Positions 35,265 through 50,365 of a stretch of 64,000 nt of DNA are shown here, piece after piece. The DNA comes from Streptomyces sp. NBC_01465. GTDB taxonomy: Bacteria > Actinomycetota > Actinomycetes > Streptomycetales > Streptomycetaceae. Location of the stretch: NCBI RefSeq assembly GCF_036227325.1, contig NZ_CP109467.1:7006001-7070000 (forward strand), read 5' to 3'. The notes beneath the pieces were generated by a model, which was not told where the DNA came from, made no database searches, and saw only the letters and a program-made list of their open reading frames with translations. Each line of letters begins with the position of its first letter. Position 1 is the stretch's first letter. The translations under genes were made by a program, and so were the position numbers.

Positions 35265-35300
35265 TTCCGTATAGCAGAACTGAAATTCCGCAATACGGAA
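35265..35300 (+). promoter_or_regulatory. Operator doublet of gcl (TTCCG-N5-CGGAA)
   Basis: A perfect palindrome TTCCGCAATACGGAA lies at 35286-35300 and a degenerate copy TTCCGTATAGCAGAA at 35265-35279. The two are exactly 21 bp apart, or two helical turns. The identical 15-mer and a similar degenerate partner occur in the same order before hyi. An IclR-type repressor such as the allantoin-pathway AllR is a candidate binder by analogy. No such regulator is encoded in this window. Confidence 0.75.
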
Positions 35301-42770: not shown

Positions 42771-44228
42771 CTAGTCCTCGCGCAGGGCGCGGACCGCCTC
42801 CTCCACGCGCTTGCCGTACTCGGCGTCGGCTGCGTGGAAGTGGGCCAGGTTCTTCTCGATCACGTCGTCGCGGGTGACCTGCGAGAGGCCGCCGGCGATG
42901 TTGGCGATCAGTCGGGACTTCTCGTCGTCCGACATCAGACGGTAGAGCTCGCCCGCCTGGAAGAAGTCGTCGTCCTTGACGTGGGCGGGGGCGGCGTAGG
43001 TGCCGGTCCAGCCGGTGAGGGCGTACGGGGCGGAGAGCGCCGCGTCCGTCTGGGACGGGCCCTGGTAGGAGTTGGGCTCGTAGTTCTTCTCGCTGCGACC
43101 GCCGTTGCGCGTCGCCATCGCACCGTCGCGGCCGTAGTTCGAAGCGACCGTCGCCTTGGGGGCGTTGACCGGCAGCTGGGTGTGGTTGATGCCCACCCGG
43201 TAGCGCTGCGCGTCGGCGTACGCGAAGAGGCGGCCCTGCAGCATCTTGTCCGGCGAAGGACCGATGCCCGGAACGAAGTTGTTCGGGGAGAACGCGGCCT
43301 GCTCGACCTCGGCGAAGACGTTGTTGGGGTTGCGGTCCAGGACCAGGCGCCCCACGCGCTGCAGCGGGTAGTCGCTGTGCGGCCAGATCTTCGTCAGGTC
43401 GAAGGGGTTGAAGCGGTAGTCGGCCGCCTCGGCCGCCGGCATGACCTGGACGTACAGGGTCCAGGACGGGTTGACGCCCCGCTCGATGGCCTGCAGCAGG
43501 TCCGTCTGGTGGGAGTTGGCGTCCTTGCCCGCGAGCTCGGCGCCCTGCTCGGCGGAGAGGCAGCGGATGCCCTGGTTCGTCTTGAAGTGGTACTTGACGA
43601 AGAAGGCCTCGCCCTCGGCGTTCGTCCACTGGTAGGTGTGCGAGCCGTAGCCGTTCATGTGGCGGTACGAGGCGGGGATGCCGCGGTCGCCCATCAGCCA
43701 GGTGATCTGGTGCGTGGCTTCCGGCGCGTGCGCCCAGAAGTCCCAGACGTTGTCCGCCTCCTGCTTGCCCGTGAAGGGGTCGCGCTTCTGGGAGTGGATG
43801 AAGTCGGGGAACTTGATCGGGTCCTTGATGAAGAACACCGGGGTGTTGTTGCCGACCAGGTCGTAGTTGCCCTGCTCGGTGTAGAACTTCAGCGCGAAGC
43901 CGCGCGGGTCGCGGACCGCGTCCGCGCCGCCGAGCGAGTCGGCCACGGTCGAGAAGCGGATGAACGTCTCGGTGCGCTTGCCGACGGTGGAGAGGAAGTC
44001 GGCGTGGGTGAAGCCGGTGACGTCGTCCGTCACCTCGAAGTAGCCGTAGGCGCCGGAGCCGCGTGCGTGGACGACGCGCTCCGGGATGCGCTCGCGGTTG
44101 AACCGGGCGAGCTTCTCCAGCAGGTGCTGGTCCTGGAGGAGCAGCGGTCCACCGAGGCCGGCGGATGCGGAGTTCTGGTTGTCGGCGACCGGGGCGCCTG
44201 ACTCGGTCGTAAGCACGCGCTTCGACAT
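42771..44228 (-). CDS. katA: Catalase (small-subunit, haem)
   Basis: 485 residues, a clade 3 monofunctional catalase that converts hydrogen peroxide to water and oxygen. Distal His54 is in [12 protein letters not shown] and the catalytic Asn in [21 protein letters not shown] is typical, and the proximal haem ligand Tyr is in [14 protein letters not shown] (about 337). The C-terminus matches small catalases. It lies beside uric-acid genes and its promoter carries the same palindrome as the uricase operon. The role is therefore probably removal of peroxide made by uricase. Confidence 0.95.
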
Positions 44229-44283: not shown

Positions 44284-44324
44284 AGCGTAAATTCGCTTCG
44301 AACGTCACGTCAACAGTTTGTTGA
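44284..44324 (-). promoter_or_regulatory. katA promoter with palindromic operator over the -35
   Basis: Read on the minus strand, TTGACG (44313-44308), an 18-base spacer and TACGCT (44289-44284) form the promoter. The palindrome TCAACA-AAC-TGTTGA (44324-44310) covers the -35. The 19 bases TTTCAACAAACTGTTGACG differ at one position from those before uraD. Confidence 0.75.
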
Positions 44325-44354
44325 AAGTGCTGGTCGTTTGAGTTGCGTGTGGTG

Positions 44355-44416
44355 TTCCGGGCGGCGGCGACGCCTGGGCGCGACAGGACAGGTGTCAGCG
44401 CCACCGCCGCCCGGAA
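44355..44416 (-). terminator. Structured element downstream of glxR
   Basis: TTCCGGGCGGCGG (44355-44367) and CCGCCGCCCGGAA (44404-44416) pair perfectly. Inside, GACGCCTG pairs with CAGGTGTC with one wobble, leaving a loop with GGCGCGACAGGA. It lies 42 bases beyond the glxR stop and before the katA promoter, so it probably ends the hyi-glxR transcript. It shares its loop sequence with the element at 42498. Confidence 0.65.
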
Positions 44417-44458
44417 ATCTGGGGGAAGTCACGAGGGGAACGTCGCCCCCTCGTAGCT

Positions 44459-45349
44459 TCAGACCTGCGAGCCCGACAGGCGCTCGACCGAGCGCAGCAG
44501 CGCCGAGTGGTCCAGGCCGCCGTCGCCCTGGGCGCGCAGCGAGGCGACCAGCTGGGCGACGACCGCGCCGACGGGCAGGGCCGCGCCGACGTTGCGGGCG
44601 GCGTCGGTGACGATGCCCATGTCCTTGTGGTGCAGGTCGATCCGGAAGCCGGGCTTGAAGTCCCGGTTGATGAAGTTGTCCTTCTTGCGGGTCAGGACGG
44701 TCGAGCCGGCCAGGCCGCCGTTGAGGACGTCCAGGGCGGCCGCGAGGTCGACGCCCGACTTCTCCAGGAAGACGACGGCCTCGGCGCAGGCCTGGATGTT
44801 GACCGCGACGATCAGCTGGTTGGCGGCCTTCACGGTCTGGCCCGAGCCGTGCGGACCGCACAGGACGATGGTCTTGCCGAGCGCGTCGAGCACCGGGCGG
44901 GCCTCGTCGAAGTCGGCCTTCTCGCCGCCGACCATGATGGAGAGCACGGCTTCGATCGCGCCGGCCTCGCCACCGGAGACCGGGGCGTCCAGGACGCGGA
45001 TTCCCTTGTCCTTGGCGGCCTTGGCGAGGTCCACCGAGGTCTGCGGGGTGATCGAGGACATGTCGATCAGCAGGGCGCCCTCACGGGCGTTCTCCAGGAT
45101 GCCGTTCTCGCCGTACGCGATGGCCTCGACCTGCGGGGATGCGGGCACCATCGTCACGATCACGTCGGCGTCCTTCACCGCCTCGGCGATCGAGGAGGCG
45201 ACGGTGCCGCCGGCGGCCGCGAGACGGTCCAGCTTGTCCTGCTCCAGCGTGAAGCCGGTGACGGAGTAGCCGGCCTTGATCAGGTTCTCGGACATGGGGG
45301 AGCCCATGATGCCGAGGCCGACCCATGCGATCTTGGGGAGAGTGCTCAT
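44459..45349 (-). CDS. glxR: 2-hydroxy-3-oxopropionate (tartronate semialdehyde) reductase
   Basis: 296 residues of the beta-hydroxyacid dehydrogenase family. The NAD(P) site is WVGLGIMGSPMSENLIKAGY (about 8-27), the substrate motif is DAPVSGGEAGA (about 117-127), and the catalytic Lys is in GSGQTVKAANQ (about 171). It reduces tartronate semialdehyde to D-glycerate. It lies 34 bases downstream of hyi on the same strand and is probably co-transcribed. ATG 45349 is preceded by AGAGG. Confidence 0.9.
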   Translation of the reverse strand: MSTLPKIAWVGLGIMGSPMSENLIKAGYSVTGFTLEQDKLDRLAAAGGTVASSIAEAVKDADVIVTMVPASPQVEAIAYGENGILENAREGALLIDMSSITPQTSVDLAKAAKDKGIRVLDAPVSGGEAGAIEAVLSIMVGGEKADFDEARPVLDALGKTIVLCGPHGSGQTVKAANQLIVAVNIQACAEAVVFLEKSGVDLAAALDVLNGGLAGSTVLTRKKDNFINRDFKPGFRIDLHHKDMGIVTDAARNVGAALPVGAVVAQLVASLRAQGDGGLDHSALLRSVERLSGSQV

Positions 45350-45383
45350 CAGGGTGCCTCTTTCAACATGCAGACATAAGTGG

Positions 45384-46208
45384 TCAGTTGGCCGTGAGCC
45401 AGTCGAAGGCCTCGGCGCTCGGGCGGTCGCCCGGCTTGTACTCCAGGCCGACCCAGCCCTCGTAGCCCGCCTTGCCGAGCCGGTCGAGGAGGTCCCCGAG
45501 CGGCAGCGATCCGGTGCCCGGCGCGCCACGGCCCGGGTTGTCCGCGATCTGGACGTGGCCGGTCTTGTCGGCGTAGGCGTCGATCACGGCGGCGACATCT
45601 TCGCCGTTCATCGACAGGTGGTAGATGTCCAGCAGGAACTTGGCGTTGCCGAGTCCGCTGAGCGCGTTCACCTTGTCGATGACCTCGATCGCGGCCGGGG
45701 CGCTCACCAGCGGGTAGAGCGGCGATTCCGGCTTGTTGAGGGTCTCGACCAGGAGGATTGCGCCGATACGGTCGGCCGCGCGGGCCGCCAGCACCAGGTT
45801 CTCCAGGGCGAGTGCGTCCTGGGCCGCCGGGTCGACGCCGTCGACACGGTTGCCGTAGAGCGCGTTGAGCGCCTTGCAGCCGACCGAGGCGGCGAAGTCC
45901 GCCGCGATGCCGATGTTGGCGCGGAAGCGGTCCGACTCCTCGCCGGGTACGGAGAGGGCTCCGCGGTCAGGGCCGGGGAGCTTGCCCGCGTAGAAATTCA
46001 GCCCCACGAGCTGGGTGCCTGCGTCGTCGAGCGCCTTCTTTAGGGCGTCGAGCTCGGCCTGCGCCGGGGTGGGGGTCTCGATCCAGGGCCACCACAGCTC
46101 GACCGCCGTGAAGCCCGCGGCGGCCGCGGCCGCCGGGCGCTCCAGGAGCGGGAGTTCCGTGAAGAGGATCGAAAGGTTCACATCGAAGCGCTGGTCCTTG
46201 AGGCCCAT
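45384..46208 (-). CDS. hyi: Hydroxypyruvate isomerase (TIM-barrel)
   Basis: 274 residues, xylose-isomerase-like barrel. DVNLSILFTELPLLERPAAAAAAGF begins the barrel, catalytic Glu residues lie in LLVETLNKPES (about 143) and WVGLEYKPG (about 250), and metal ligands in LLDIYHLSMNGED. It interconverts hydroxypyruvate and tartronate semialdehyde in glyoxylate use. ATG 46208 has AAGGAG upstream. The last bases of the operator's perfect palindrome touch this ribosome site, so a bound repressor would cover both. First gene of hyi-glxR. Confidence 0.9.
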   Translation of the reverse strand: MGLKDQRFDVNLSILFTELPLLERPAAAAAAGFTAVELWWPWIETPTPAQAELDALKKALDDAGTQLVGLNFYAGKLPGPDRGALSVPGEESDRFRANIGIAADFAASVGCKALNALYGNRVDGVDPAAQDALALENLVLAARAADRIGAILLVETLNKPESPLYPLVSAPAAIEVIDKVNALSGLGNAKFLLDIYHLSMNGEDVAAVIDAYADKTGHVQIADNPGRGAPGTGSLPLGDLLDRLGKAGYEGWVGLEYKPGDRPSAEAFDWLTAN

Positions 46209-46220
46209 CGAGTGCGCTCC

Positions 46221-46285
46221 TTCCGTATTGCGGAAGTTGTTTTCTGCTTGATGGAAGGTTGCCTTCAATCCGGGAGAGCTGTCAA
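46221..46285 (-). promoter_or_regulatory. hyi promoter and operator doublet
   Basis: On the minus strand, TTGACA (46285-46280) could be the -35, with CAACCT about 18 bases downstream as a poor -10. Then follow a degenerate site TTCCATCAAGCAGAA (46256-46242) and a perfect site TTCCGCAATACGGAA (46235-46221), again 21 bp apart. Order, spacing and the exact 15-mer match gcl. Confidence 0.7.
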
Positions 46286-46328
46286 GAGGGCCTCCCGGAT
46301 TTCGTCGGCCGCGCGTTAGGTTGAGCGC

Positions 46329-46592
46329 GTGCGATTGAGAGTGGAGTTCACGACCGAGCCCTTCGACCTCGACGAGGCGCCGCAGCATGCGCTGGTCGCC
46401 CGTGAGGTCGTCGAAGGCGCCGCGCTGGACGCAGTGGACGTGGGGCCCTTCGGCAACACGGCGGAAGGTGGTGCGGACGCGGTGCTCACCGCGGTCGACG
46501 CCCTCCTGCGCAAGTCCCTCGCGGCCGGCGCCACACGCGTCTCGCTGCAGGTCAACGTCATCGGCGAGAGCGACGGGGAGGGCCAGAAGTGA
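46329..46592 (+). CDS. Small thiamine-binding (MTH1187/YkoF-like) protein
   Basis: 87 residues. VGPFGNTAEGGADAVLTAVDALLRKSLAAGATRVSLQVNVI resembles the ferredoxin-like MTH1187/thiamine-BP family, small soluble proteins that bind thiamine or related ligands. The assignment rests on pattern only. TAGGTT at 46317-46322 ends six bases before the GTG, and no ribosome site is seen, so the mRNA may be leaderless. It is divergent from hyi and overlaps the next gene by 4 bases. Confidence 0.55.
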   Translation: MRLRVEFTTEPFDLDEAPQHALVAREVVEGAALDAVDVGPFGNTAEGGADAVLTAVDALLRKSLAAGATRVSLQVNVIGESDGEGQK

Positions 46593-46951
46593 CCGAGCCC
46601 GGAGACCACCCCTTCGTCGCCGCGGTGAAGCCGCTGGTGGACGCCATGGGCGCCGAGATACTCAGGCCGGAGCAGGCCGGGGCCGACGATGTCGTCCTGG
46701 CGTGGGAGGGCGAGGACGTACTCGCCGTACGCCTTCCGCAGCTCTCGGACTCCCTCGACCACATTCTGGCGGCCATGGAACGCAGGCACGGAGTGCCGCT
46801 GTCCGAGCTGGACCGCCGGGCCAAGCAGTCGGTCGTACGGACCCTGGAGGCGCGCGGCGCCTTCTCCGTACGGCACGGGGTGGAGACGGTCGCGGGGGCA
46901 CTGGGTGTCTCCCGCTTCACGGTCTACAACTACCTGAACCGCTCGGAGTGA
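46589..46951 (+). CDS. DauR-like helix-turn-helix protein
   Basis: 120 residues. The last 45 residues (VVRTLEARGAFSVRHGVETVAGALGVSRFTVYNYLNR) match the HTH_22 domain found at the C-terminus of DauR/YheO regulators. The preceding part is a short remnant-like sensor (DVVLAWEGEDVLAVRLPQLSDSLD) with LDRRAKQ linking the two. It is much shorter than DauR (about 220 residues). Lying between hyi and uraD, it is a candidate local regulator of either set, but nothing shows which. Confidence 0.65.
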   Translation: MTEPGDHPFVAAVKPLVDAMGAEILRPEQAGADDVVLAWEGEDVLAVRLPQLSDSLDHILAAMERRHGVPLSELDRRAKQSVVRTLEARGAFSVRHGVETVAGALGVSRFTVYNYLNRSE

Positions 46952-46993
46952 ACCGACAGGTAACCTCCCGTCCCCTTTTGTAACTCGAAGTTT

Positions 46994-47034
46994 TCAACAA
47001 AGTGTTGACGCGGTGTTTCCGAGGGCGTTAGCTA
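46994..47034 (+). promoter_or_regulatory. uraD-uraH-uricase promoter with palindromic operator over the -35
   Basis: TCAACA-AAG-TGTTGA (46994-47008) overlaps TTGACG (47005-47010). A TTAGCT/TAGCTA at 47028-47034 provides a -10 at 17-18 bases. The flanks TTT and CG also match the katA promoter, giving 18 of 19 identical bases. Confidence 0.75.
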
Positions 47035-47072: not shown

Positions 47073-47594
47073 GTGACTTCGAGCAGTACACCGAGTACAC
47101 CGGGTCTGACCCGGTTCAACACCCAGCAGGACAGTGCGGCCCTGGCCGCGCTCCACGAGGTGTGCGCCAGTCCGGCATGGGGGAGCAAGCTGCTCGCCCA
47201 GCGTCCGTACGCCACCGCCGAAGCCCTCTTCCTCGCCAGTGACGCCGCCACGGCCGAACTGACCACCGAGGACCTGGCCGACGCGATGGCGGGACACCCG
47301 CCGATCGGACGGCCGAAGCCCGGAGACCCGACCTCCTCCCGTGAACAGCGGGGGATGGCCGGGGCATCCGAAGAGCTCAAAGTGGAAATGCTCGAACTGA
47401 ACCTGGCCTACCAGGACAGGTTCGGACATGTCTTTCTGATCTGCGCCACCGGCGCGACCGGCGAGCAGATGCGCGATGCGATGAAGGCCCGGATCGGCAA
47501 TACGCCCGAGCAGGAGCGCGCCATCGTGCGCACCGAGCTGGGCAAGATCAACCGCATCCGGCTGACCCGCCTCGTGGAGGAAGAGACCGCATGA
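47073..47594 (+). CDS. uraD: OHCU decarboxylase
   Basis: 173 residues. It decarboxylates 2-oxo-4-hydroxy-4-carboxy-5-ureidoimidazoline to S-allantoin, the last step of the urate-to-allantoin path. Catalytic His75 lies in GHPPIG, and the conserved Glu91 in SREQRGM. YQDRFGHVFLICATG and the Arg-rich end are family-typical. GTG 47073 is chosen because GGAGG is 5 bases upstream. A longer frame would start inside the promoter. It overlaps uraH by 4 bases. Confidence 0.9.
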   Translation: MTSSSTPSTPGLTRFNTQQDSAALAALHEVCASPAWGSKLLAQRPYATAEALFLASDAATAELTTEDLADAMAGHPPIGRPKPGDPTSSREQRGMAGASEELKVEMLELNLAYQDRFGHVFLICATGATGEQMRDAMKARIGNTPEQERAIVRTELGKINRIRLTRLVEEETA

Positions 47595-47983
47595 GTACCG
47601 AAACGACCGCATCGGTGTCCACGCACATCCTGGACACCAGCGTCGGCCGCCCCGCAGAGGGCGTCCCCGTCGAGCTTTCCGTACGCAGTGGAAGCGACGC
47701 GGAGTGGAGCGCCCACGGCGTCTCCAAGACCGACGCGGACGGGCGAGTGAAGGACCTGCCGGCCCTGCCGGAAGGAACCACCCACGTACGGCTCGATTTC
47801 CGGACCGAGCCGTACTTCGACACCAAGCAAGCCGCCGAGGCACAGCAGGACGCCCCCCGCGTAAGGGACAGCGCTGCGTTCTTCCCGGAGGTGGCGATCA
47901 CTTTCGCCGTCGCCCCGGGCGAGCACTATCACGTACCGCTGCTGCTCAACCCGTTCGGCTACTCCGTATACCGAGGGAGCTAG
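47591..47983 (+). CDS. uraH: 5-hydroxyisourate hydrolase (transthyretin-like)
   Basis: 130 residues. It hydrolyses 5-hydroxyisourate, the unstable product of uricase. STHILDTSVGRPAEGVPV near the N-terminus, the internal FFPEV and YHVPLLLNPFGYSVYRGS with the terminal YRGS tetrapeptide are the diagnostic features. The middle gene of a three-gene operon, it is coupled to uraD by ATGA overlap and lies 5 bases before uricase. Confidence 0.95.
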   Translation: MSTETTASVSTHILDTSVGRPAEGVPVELSVRSGSDAEWSAHGVSKTDADGRVKDLPALPEGTTHVRLDFRTEPYFDTKQAAEAQQDAPRVRDSAAFFPEVAITFAVAPGEHYHVPLLLNPFGYSVYRGS

Positions 47984-47988
47984 CAGAC

Positions 47989-48912
47989 ATGCCCACGATT
48001 CTTGGACAGAACCAGTACGGCAAGGCGGAGAACCGCGTTGTCAAGATCACGCGGGACGGCGACACCCACCACATCAAGGACCTGAACGTCTCCGTCGCCC
48101 TCTCCGGCGACATGGACGACGTCCACTACTCCGGCTCCAACGCCAACGTTCTGCCGACCGACACCACCAAGAACACGGTGTTCGCGTTCGCCAAGGAGTT
48201 CGGCATCGAGTCCGCCGAGCAGTTCGGCATCCACCTCGCCCGTCACTTCGTGACGACGCAGGAGCCGATCAAGGTCGCGCGGATCCGGATCGAGGAGTAC
48301 TCCTGGGAGCGCATCGCGACCTCGGACAACAACTCGAAGTTCATCGGCTCGGACCAGGTCAACCACTCCTTCGCCCGCAAGGGCCAGGAACTGCGCACCA
48401 CGCAGATCACCTTCGACGGTGAGAAGTGGCAGATCATCTCCGGTCTGAAGGACCTGACGGTCATGAACTCCACCAACTCGGAGTTCTGGGGCTACGTCAA
48501 GGACAAGTACACGACGCTCAAGGAGGCGTACGACCGCATCCTGTGCACCGACGTCTCCGCGGCCTGGCGCTACAACTGGACCAGCGACGACGAGCGGATG
48601 CCCAACTGGGAGCGTTCGTACGAGCAGGCCAAGAAGCACATCCTGCAGGCCTTCGCGGAGACGTACTCCCTTTCTCTGCAGCAGACCCTGTACCAGATGG
48701 GTTCGCGCGTCATCAACAGCCGCAGCGAGGTCGACGAGATCCGTTTCTCGCTGCCGAACAACCACCACTTCCTGGTGGACCTCGAGCCCTTCGGGCTGAA
48801 GAACGACAACGAGGTCTACTTCGCGGCGGACCGTCCGTACGGCCTGATCGAGGCCACTGTGCTGCGGGACGGAGTCGAGCCGCAGATCCCGGTCGACATG
48901 ACCAACCTCTGA
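47989..48912 (+). CDS. pucL: Urate oxidase (uricase), factor-independent
   Basis: 307 residues, a cofactor-free oxidase that converts urate and oxygen to 5-hydroxyisourate and hydrogen peroxide. LPTDTTKNTVFAFAKE (about 46-61) holds the catalytic Thr/Lys region, NHSFARKGQE, LTVMNSTNSEFWGYVKDKYTTL and SLPNNHHFLVDLEPFG are conserved blocks. It has no obvious peroxisome-like or secretion signal. Peroxide production explains the shared operator with katA. A hairpin follows before the permease. Confidence 0.95.
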   Translation: MPTILGQNQYGKAENRVVKITRDGDTHHIKDLNVSVALSGDMDDVHYSGSNANVLPTDTTKNTVFAFAKEFGIESAEQFGIHLARHFVTTQEPIKVARIRIEEYSWERIATSDNNSKFIGSDQVNHSFARKGQELRTTQITFDGEKWQIISGLKDLTVMNSTNSEFWGYVKDKYTTLKEAYDRILCTDVSAAWRYNWTSDDERMPNWERSYEQAKKHILQAFAETYSLSLQQTLYQMGSRVINSRSEVDEIRFSLPNNHHFLVDLEPFGLKNDNEVYFAADRPYGLIEATVLRDGVEPQIPVDMTNL

Positions 48913-48979: not shown

Positions 48980-50365
48980 ATGGCAACGACGCCAGTTCAA
49001 GGGCCTGCCGAAGGCCCATGTCCGACCCCACCGGCCCACCCGGTGGACGAGAAGCTCCCCGCCTCGCGGCTGATCCCCGCCGCGCTCCAGCACATCGCCG
49101 CCATGTACGCCGGCGTCGTCACGCCTCCGCTCATCATCGGCCAGGCCGTCGGCCTGGACACCGCGGGAATGACCCGGCTGATCGCCGCGGGCCTGCTCAT
49201 CGCCGGGCTCGCCACGCTCCTGCAGACCTTGGGCGTCGCGAAGTTCGCCGGGAACCGGCTGCCGTTCGTCAACGCCGCGTCCTCCGCCGGCATCGCGCCG
49301 ATGCTCGCCATCGCCGAGACCAGCGCACCGGGGCACCAACTCCCCGCCATCTACGGCGCGGTGATGGTCGCCGGAGTCTTCTGCCTCTGCGTCGGTCCCT
49401 TCTTCGGACGGCTGCTGCGCTTCTTCCCGCCGCTCGTCACCGGCATCGTCATCACCCTCATCGGCGTCACGCTGATGCCCGTCCCGGTCTCCTGGGCGCA
49501 GGGCGGCAACAAGGACGCCGCAGACTTCGGCGCCATGAAGTACCTGGCGCTCGCCGCCTTCACGCTCGCCGTGATCCTCGTCATCCAGCGCTTCGGCAAG
49601 GGATTCGTCAAGCAAGTCGCCCTGCTGCTGGGCCTGTTGATCGGCACGCTCGCCGCGATCCCCTTCGGGATGGCCGACTTCAGCGCCATCAAGTCGGCGC
49701 CCGTCGCGGCCCTCCCCGTCCCCTTCGCCTTCGGCGCCCCCGAGTTCCAGCCCGCCGCGATCCTCTCGCTCTGCATCGTGATGCTGGTGCTGATGACGGA
49801 GTCGTCGGCCGGAATGCTGGCGCTCGGCGAGATCTGCGACCGCCGCACGGACGGCCGGACGATCACCCGCGGGCTCCGTACGGACGGCATCGCGACCCTC
49901 ATCGGACCGATGTTCGGCGGCTTCCCCACCAGTGCCTTCGCGCAGAACGTCGGCGTCGTCTCGCTGACACGTGTCCGCAGCCGGTACGTCGTCGCAGCGG
50001 CGGGCGGCGCCCTGATCGTCCTCGGCACTTTTCCGGTCCTCGGCGCGGTCGTCTCGATGGTGCCGATGCCCGTCCTCGGCGGCGCGGGGATCGTCCTCTT
50101 CGGCTCCATCGCCGTCAGCGGGATCCGTACCCTCTCCGAGGCCGGACTCGACGAGAGCTCCAACATCATCCTGGTCGCGGTCTCGCTCGGGGCGGGCATC
50201 ATCCCGCTCGCCGCGCCCACCTTCTACGCACAGTTTCCCGCCTGGGCGCAGACCGTCCTGGGCTCCGGCATCAGCGCCGGCGCACTGGTCGCGGTCCTGC
50301 TCAATCTTTTCTTCCACCATCTCGGCACCCGGAGCCACGCGGCTGCGGCACTCAAATCTTCCTAG
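48980..50365 (+). CDS. Nucleobase:cation symporter-2 (urate/xanthine permease), first copy
   Basis: 461 residues with about 12-14 membrane segments. LQHIAAMYAGVVTPPLIIG (about 33-51), GNRLPFVNAASSAGIAPM, the TM8-region MTESSAGMLALGEI and AFAQNVGVVSLTRVRSRY with the NCS2 signature are seen. The family brings urate, xanthine or uracil into the cell with protons. Downstream of uricase, urate or xanthine is the likely cargo. ATG 48980 has GGAGGG upstream. Paralogous to the gene at 52038. Confidence 0.9.
   Translation: MATTPVQGPAEGPCPTPPAHPVDEKLPASRLIPAALQHIAAMYAGVVTPPLIIGQAVGLDTAGMTRLIAAGLLIAGLATLLQTLGVAKFAGNRLPFVNAASSAGIAPMLAIAETSAPGHQLPAIYGAVMVAGVFCLCVGPFFGRLLRFFPPLVTGIVITLIGVTLMPVPVSWAQGGNKDAADFGAMKYLALAAFTLAVILVIQRFGKGFVKQVALLLGLLIGTLAAIPFGMADFSAIKSAPVAALPVPFAFGAPEFQPAAILSLCIVMLVLMTESSAGMLALGEICDRRTDGRTITRGLRTDGIATLIGPMFGGFPTSAFAQNVGVVSLTRVRSRYVVAAAGGALIVLGTFPVLGAVVSMVPMPVLGGAGIVLFGSIAVSGIRTLSEAGLDESSNIILVAVSLGAGIIPLAAPTFYAQFPAWAQTVLGSGISAGALVAVLLNLFFHHLGTRSHAAAALKSS

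Follow-up and report, generated by a model that had tools for sequence, protein, structure and literature searches.

A palindrome conserved before the uricase operon and the catalase gene of Streptomyces, and a putative HTH_22 regulator with an MTH1187-type partner

The MarR-family proteins HucR and PecS repress urate-linked genes, and urate relieves this repression. DauR and YheO, which carry a YheO-like PAS domain, have a DNA-binding domain of the PF13309 type, and AllR of S. coelicolor and E. coli, an IclR-family protein, acts in the control of allantoin genes. Here we consider a stretch of 64,000 nucleotides from Streptomyces sp. NBC_01465 (NZ_CP109467.1, positions 7,006,001 to 7,070,000; hereafter the window), in which the palindrome TCAACA-N3-TGTTGA is found before the catalase gene katA and before the uraD-uraH-uricase operon. 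A PF13309 (HTH_22; HTH, helix-turn-helix) protein is encoded directly upstream of uraD, preceded by a small protein of the MTH1187/YkoF type, and in the same genome an IclR-family gene lies beside allB. We propose that TCAACA-N3-TGTTGA is an operator of purine catabolism, bound by the HTH_22 protein, with the small protein as its sensor, and that this binding represses transcription; we consider this proposal likely.

In S. coelicolor, the available excerpts of PMC4991794 describe the uraD-uraH-uricase genes (SCO6209-6211) as down under oxidative stress, with a SenR site predicted 51 bp ahead of SCO6209. The accessible part of PMC3897704 lists SCO6208, whose number directly precedes that of SCO6209 (uraD), as a putative transposase; judging by where it lies, this may correspond to the HTH_22 gene. 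Control of S. coelicolor xdh by XdhR and (p)ppGpp, as covered in the excerpt of PMC6627660, is a separate layer. The accessible portions of the literature under Creative Commons licence yielded no regulator specific to urate breakdown for Streptomyces or actinobacteria, which is weak evidence of absence.

The sequence TTTCAACAAA(C/G)TGTTGACG covers the -35 element of katA and that of uraD-uraH-uricase, and 18 of 19 bases are identical between the two copies, as a previous sequence-only reading of the window had claimed. The second half of the palindrome contributes TTGACG as the presumed -35 element of both promoters, with a -10-like hexamer, located by eye, 17-18 bp downstream. TTGACG is conserved in the katA promoters of all 18 named Streptomyces loci holding katA; the -10 elements are also conserved, TAGCT-like at uraD (35 Streptomyces promoters) and TAGGCT-like at katA (18). 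The window has two exact copies of TCAACA-N3-TGTTGA, these two only, and when up to two mismatches are allowed it has 4 matches against 0.43 expected, a number reached by none of 100 shuffles. A search of the whole genome (9,138,776 bases in one contig), the check that the sequence-only reading had suggested, gave three exact copies, where about 0.03 would be expected from the base composition of the window, and none of the pattern written backwards. The third copy, outside the window, lies 31 bp before allB (allantoinase), divergent from an IclR-family gene. Weak copies are uninformative, because 268 places match the motif with up to two mismatches and 124 match it backwards; the relaxed form TCAACN5GTTGA occurs 9 times versus 7 backwards, four of the nine being at katA, uraD, allB and aceB. 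Among the 14 places with one mismatch, comparison with pathway proteins matched two: TCAACGGTCTGTTGA precedes malate synthase and TCAACAGATTGTTTA precedes a second NCS2-type purine permease.

We observed the same excess in the genus. There are 124 exact copies versus 2 backwards in 41 Streptomyces genomes (this one included), 40 of which have at least one (coding copies included), and the counts in two further sets are 73 versus 1 (28 genomes) and 70 versus 5 (38 genomes). In 80 named loci (1.56 Mb) the motif occurs 104 times, while the 59 other half-sites that can be composed from its letters account for a single occurrence in all; no exact copy arose in 3.86 Mb simulated with a first-order Markov model. 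The shared palindrome is real and far beyond chance. It is also conserved in related genomes, as the operator of a coherent regulon would be, the point on which the sequence-only reading had made its claim depend: it precedes uraD in 79 of 79 loci, and in the named Streptomyces loci with katA it precedes that gene in 18 of 18.

The HTH_22 protein upstream of uraD is a strong regulator candidate, where the sequence-only reading had named none. Its PF13309 match reaches 73.2 bits (cut-off 29.6), and the recognition helix V(S/T)RFTVYNYLNR is almost invariant among its orthologs. The pair is a single open reading frame (ORF) in 22 of the 80 named loci. In genome G087, the pair is one protein of 190 amino acids in which PF01910 (41.2 bits) and PF13309 (65.4 bits) are both above cut-off, and this protein precedes uricase with an exact site between them. 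The fused homologue P0122 scores 41.2 bits for PF01910, above cut-off; among five fused relatives two are over the cut-off (41.2 and 29.3) and three are under it (20.6-24.1). A predicted structure of the fused homologue of locus L258 (mean pLDDT 89.9, pTM 0.51, alignment of 14 sequences) has a ferredoxin-like beta-alpha-beta-beta-alpha-beta domain and a helical HTH domain. Its best matches in the PDB are MTH1187-type structures (1yqh, 2eky, 1lxn, 1vk8), with YkoF lower, and the sequence profile agrees. The adjacent HTH_22 and MTH1187-type pair is probably the regulator of the urate-breakdown genes.

Relatives of the HTH_22 protein are present in 41 of 41 Streptomyces genomes (E <= 0.001; in two pieces in G010) and, at 1e-12, in 111 of 121 genomes of the family and in 26 of 296 genomes of the class, one of these (G087) from another family. 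Named genomes were scanned with the fused protein of G087; the best 80 of at least 244 confirmed relatives come from 35 Streptomyces loci and 45 others (Amycolatopsis, Prauserella, Kutzneria, Nocardia, Nocardioides, Kribbella, Tsukamurella, Saccharopolyspora, Halosaccharopolyspora, Actinopolyspora, Leekyejoonella and two metagenome-assembled genomes). All 80 of these best loci have the exact site. In each of the 79 regulator loci with a recognised uraD, which carry 14 genus labels, its distance upstream of that gene is between -60 and 400 bp, and it precedes uraD in 35 of 35 named Streptomyces loci. The site also accompanies uraD when the gene order changes: in L290, L326 and L334 the regulator is about 2 kb away and the exact copy remains at uraD, so that we rejected the idea that the motif merely belongs to the end of the HTH_22 gene. 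Regulator and uraD are divergent in two Tsukamurella loci, and there the site is between them.

Ten genomes of the family have no HTH_22 match, and four of them (G192, G342, G357 and G420) have kept uricase. In G192, G342 and G357, which have also kept uraD, nothing upstream of this gene comes within two mismatches of the site (the one two-mismatch match in G342 is inside the uricase coding sequence), and G356, G344 and G365, from the same genus groups, keep both regulator and site. In G420 the HTH_22 gene has diverged, the site has two mismatches and uricase contains a stop. Among 80 genomes of the class outside the family, 28 have uricase. In 27 of them the uricase locus is without the pair, and these 27 have no HTH_22 match at 1e-12 and no site within two mismatches in the uricase locus (uraD was within that locus in 19; in the other 8 only the surroundings of uricase were read), whereas G087, with the pair, has the exact site. 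These 27 genomes together with G192, G342 and G357 make 30 regulator-less uricase genomes, G420 and G010 being left out. The Fisher value for 79 of 79 versus 0 of 30, 1.6e-27, overstates the support because the loci share ancestry; the contrasts seen inside single genus groups carry more weight. Over whole genomes, exact copies are absent from G010, G316, G342, G345, G351, G357, G373 and G420, and G192 and G238 have one each, both coding. Regulator-bearing genomes hold 2-5 exact copies in 23 of 23 Streptomyces and 1-4 in all 31 other family genomes tested (of 86).

The extent of the regulon was estimated from 190 exact copies, distinct by their flanks (loci L024 to L257) and sorted by the gene that follows; as the matches were those listed or fetched, they are a non-random sample. 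Enzymes of the pathway follow in many cases: uraD in 79, katA in 20, ureA in 10, aceB in 10 (with allR on the other side in 9) and allB in 4. This set of 79 uraD sites is different from the 79 named uraD loci above, some genomes being in both. One copy each precedes uricase, a purine permease and the regulator pair, and two precede allR alone. In other genomes, then, the palindrome also fronts urease, malate synthase and a gene that we take to be DUF6986. The latter follows the motif in 16 loci (L039, L112, L155 and 13 others); its similarity to malyl-CoA lyase is weak (26.4 bits, cut-off 500) and it may be an unrecognised glyoxylate enzyme. A further 10 copies, mostly TCAACAGCCTGTTGA, were rejected as operators since they are coding sequence of a MarR-like gene. 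Copies of the TCAACAGGCTGTTGA type in this gene (L024, L042, L048 and 7 further loci) are kept by protein coding and are a trap for genome-wide motif counts.

Several observations weigh against the proposal that the pair acts through this operator. The 87-residue protein of the window scores 20.7 bits for PF01910, the thiamine-binding MTH1187 family, under the cut-off of 24.9. The set of 79 loci was drawn through the regulator, so it tells that the regulator implies the site and not the reverse; the reverse direction, from site to regulator, rests on 30 genomes, read over about 1.5 kb around uricase. L290 has a one-mismatch copy directly behind its HTH_22 gene. G010, a Streptomyces, has its HTH_22 gene in two frames, yet a one-mismatch site at uraD. 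G380 has two exact sites (L255 and L153), one before DUF6986, yet no HTH_22 match at 1e-12 and no uricase match; recent loss of the regulator, an assembly gap or another binder are candidate explanations. Of the 190 classified sites, 22 have no assigned neighbour, and 14, from as many Streptomyces genomes, have the form TTCAACA-N3-TGTTGAA and lie in the gap that separates cydA from a cyclophilin-like gene, 9-28 bp ahead of the cyclophilin-like gene, with no evident link to purines. Seen by eye, the 22 sites include a xanthine dehydrogenase-like operon in G087, a malic enzyme, a pyruvate kinase and a symporter, and a few are intragenic.

G380 and the cydA sites would suit an unlinked regulator of MarR/PecS, TetR or GntR type that binds the motif, with the HTH_22 pair as a mere neighbour. 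Set against this, regulator and uraD site are associated without exception in the loci sampled, through losses in three genus groups and through altered gene order, and we regard an unlinked regulator as unlikely.

How the HTH_22 protein would act can be judged from the promoters. At allB of this genome the palindrome lies, by eye, just behind a TTGACG-N17-AAGACT promoter, over the presumed start, and in its aceB promoter TTGAAC overlaps the palindrome, with TAGTAT as the -10 element. The operator is therefore placed differently relative to -35 and -10, and each position would block the polymerase, which argues for repression. An activator needed for the expression of uraD and katA could also use an operator beside the promoter, a location that suits either sign. 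However, the palindrome of uraD and that of katA each enclose a near-consensus -35 element, and the allB operator is just behind the presumed -10. Activators seldom sit over the -35 or behind the -10. Activation thus appears distinctly unlikely, and the varying operator position and the near-consensus -35 fit a repressor. For the HTH_22 protein as a repressor, we infer direct binding, dimer formation and the kind of ligand together with the sign of control: a dimer on the palindrome would keep RNA polymerase from the -35 at uraD, katA and aceB and, at allB, from the region of the start. A metabolite of the pathway, with urate as a first guess and allantoin or allantoate as the next, would bind the sensor and free the operator. 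Release would then turn on uricase and the downstream enzymes together and, in Streptomyces, also catalase against the H2O2 made by uricase.

The genes gcl and hyi (gcl being the label given to that ORF in the sequence-only reading) have a different motif, as that reading had noted. The window holds exactly two copies of TTCCG-N5-CGGAA, one ahead of hyi and one ahead of gcl; with two mismatches the count is 47 versus 34.7, barely above chance. TTCC-N7-GGAA occurs upstream of hyi in 26 of 31 Streptomyces cases, and TCAACA-N3-TGTTGA is at none of 52 hyi genes (31 Streptomyces, 21 others). In the part of PMC8222616 that was available, one motif group of the IclR family is GTNCG-N5-6-CGNAC, a layout that resembles TTCCG-N5-CGGAA, and the A/T-rich motif given there for E. 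coli AllR belongs to the other group. AllR would be the putative protein that binds TTCCG-N5-CGGAA here; the IclR-family gene beside allB matches IclR-type models, all below their cut-offs. By eye, the 17-bp spacer of the malate synthase (aceB) promoter of this genome (L016, 1200-1530) contains TTCCACCATGAGGAA, which fits TTCC-N7-GGAA. This suggests that the promoter bears both operators, the TCAACA palindrome over the -35 and TTCC-N7-GGAA in the spacer, and is under dual repression. The division proposed earlier, with two regulators that separate urate-to-allantoin from glyoxylate use, therefore holds as to the two palindromes and not as to a clean split, because TCAACA-N3-TGTTGA also marks allB, urease, malate synthase, the DUF6986 gene and permeases.

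A single regulator of allantoin and urate, with AllR binding TCAACA-N3-TGTTGA, would account for the IclR-family gene that adjoins the allB site and, in other genus groups, the aceB site, and S. coelicolor AllR is said to control allantoin genes (title of Navone 2015, AEM 81:6649, as cited in PMC12772271). Yet G342 keeps allR and allB with no exact site in its genome, which speaks indirectly against AllR as the explanation of the motif; G010 keeps both genes with no site at allB, though with its one-mismatch site at uraD; the IclR-like palindrome is at gcl and hyi, where TCAACA-N3-TGTTGA is absent; and allR is in none of the 35 Streptomyces loci (up to 20 kb, the search being limited to the loci) versus 16 of 45 others. 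We find AllR as the binder of this motif quite improbable. A conserved strong promoter element with no repressor, just a -35 and its flank, would fit the suitably placed TTGACG of uraD and of katA; as the whole explanation of the motif it is hardly credible given a perfect two-fold palindrome with its outer half upstream of the -35, its displacement from the -35 at allB and the enrichment of TCAACA alone among 60 half-site letter orders.

The sequence-only reading placed katA and the uricase operon in one regulon. This stands for Streptomyces, with the site at 18 of 18 katA and 35 of 35 uraD, and does not extend to a general coupling outside. Of the 20 katA sites among the classified copies, 19 are from Streptomyces and 1 is from G400, in a neighbouring genus group. 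Five relatives of katA (L368-L372; 77-82% identity) from other genus groups with the regulator have no site in 300 bp, the best match having 4-6 mismatches, and for this reason the katA coupling is not general. In 11 genomes tested for a katA site after regulator loss, catalase was present in 10, with best identities of 55-75%, possibly to paralogs, and at least 3 mismatches upstream. It seems that catalase was recruited into the regulon around Streptomyces, or was lost from it in others; within Streptomyces, the sequence evidence supports a uricase-catalase coupling well. The features of the window are collected in Table 1; the permease listed there probably shares the uricase operon.

Table 1. 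Features of the window and related sites (positions in the window, except where loci are given)
Feature	Position	Strand	Remarks
Operator, katA promoter, TTTCAACAAACTGTTGACG	44308..44326	minus	palindrome 44310-44324; TTGACG = presumed -35
Operator, uraD-uraH-uricase promoter, TTTCAACAAAGTGTTGACG	46992..47010	plus	palindrome 46994-47008; TTGACG = presumed -35
katA, catalase	42771..44228	minus	PF00199, 3.4e-188
MTH1187/YkoF-type small protein, 87 aa, proposed sensor half of the regulator	46329..46592	plus	PF01910-like, under cut-off
HTH_22 protein, 120 aa, proposed DNA-binding half	46589..46951	plus	PF13309; start overlaps end of the 87-aa gene
uraD, OHCU decarboxylase	47073..47594	plus	PF09349
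uraH, 5-hydroxyisourate hydrolase	47591..47983	plus	PF00576
Uricase (H2O2-producing)	47989..48912	plus	PF01014
Xanthine/uracil-type permease	48980..50365	plus	PF00860; start codon uncertain
Second motif, TTCCGTATTGCGGAA	46221..46235		candidate IclR/AllR site upstream of hyi (minus strand)
Second motif, TTCCGCAATACGGAA	35286..35300		upstream of gcl ORF (ATG 35363, plus strand); one-mismatch copy at 35265
cydA/cyclophilin-like sites	L025, L033-L035, L050, L051, L124, L126, L129, L186, L188, L191, L203, L210		

Beyond the operator, the pair may represent a new sensor architecture, a suggestion that we advance tentatively. The MTH1187/YkoF fold would be a detachable ligand-sensing subunit for a tiny HTH_22 protein, separate from it in Streptomyces and many others and fused to it in Amycolatopsis and relatives, and the two would repress, through a near-invariant operator, an actinobacterial regulon from purine to malate that includes permeases, uricase, catalase, allantoinase, urease and malate synthase and, in one lineage, probably xanthine dehydrogenase. 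If this is true, the orphan MTH1187 fold gains a signalling role, and a function can be offered for a fold left over from structural genomics. The protein and operator would predict controlled genes in over a dozen genera and would explain how Streptomyces could tie an H2O2-making uricase to catalase. If the guess of the ligand is right as well, the operator and repressor could act as a urate-responsive switch.

Compared with the described systems, the candidate differs from each of them. HucR and PecS have a MarR fold, unlike HTH_22, and motifs unlike TCAACA-N3-TGTTGA; no MarR-family gene was noted beside the sites of the window, where no systematic search for one was made. DauR and YheO share the PF13309 domain, and here its partner is an MTH1187/YkoF-type domain or a separate protein instead of PAS. 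AllR belongs to another protein family, the motif at gcl and hyi is another one, and allR with allB can persist in a genome (G342) devoid of TCAACA-N3-TGTTGA. SenS-SenR has another predicted sequence in PMC4991794 (CCAGCCGCCGTCCGGT) and is a separate input. The closest likeness of the sensor is to MTH1187, TM0486 and YkoF (UPF0045, PF01910), by sequence and by predicted fold, as seen for this domain in fused relatives; the proteins of the solved structures that it matches have no HTH, whereas here the domain is fused to an HTH or co-encoded with one.

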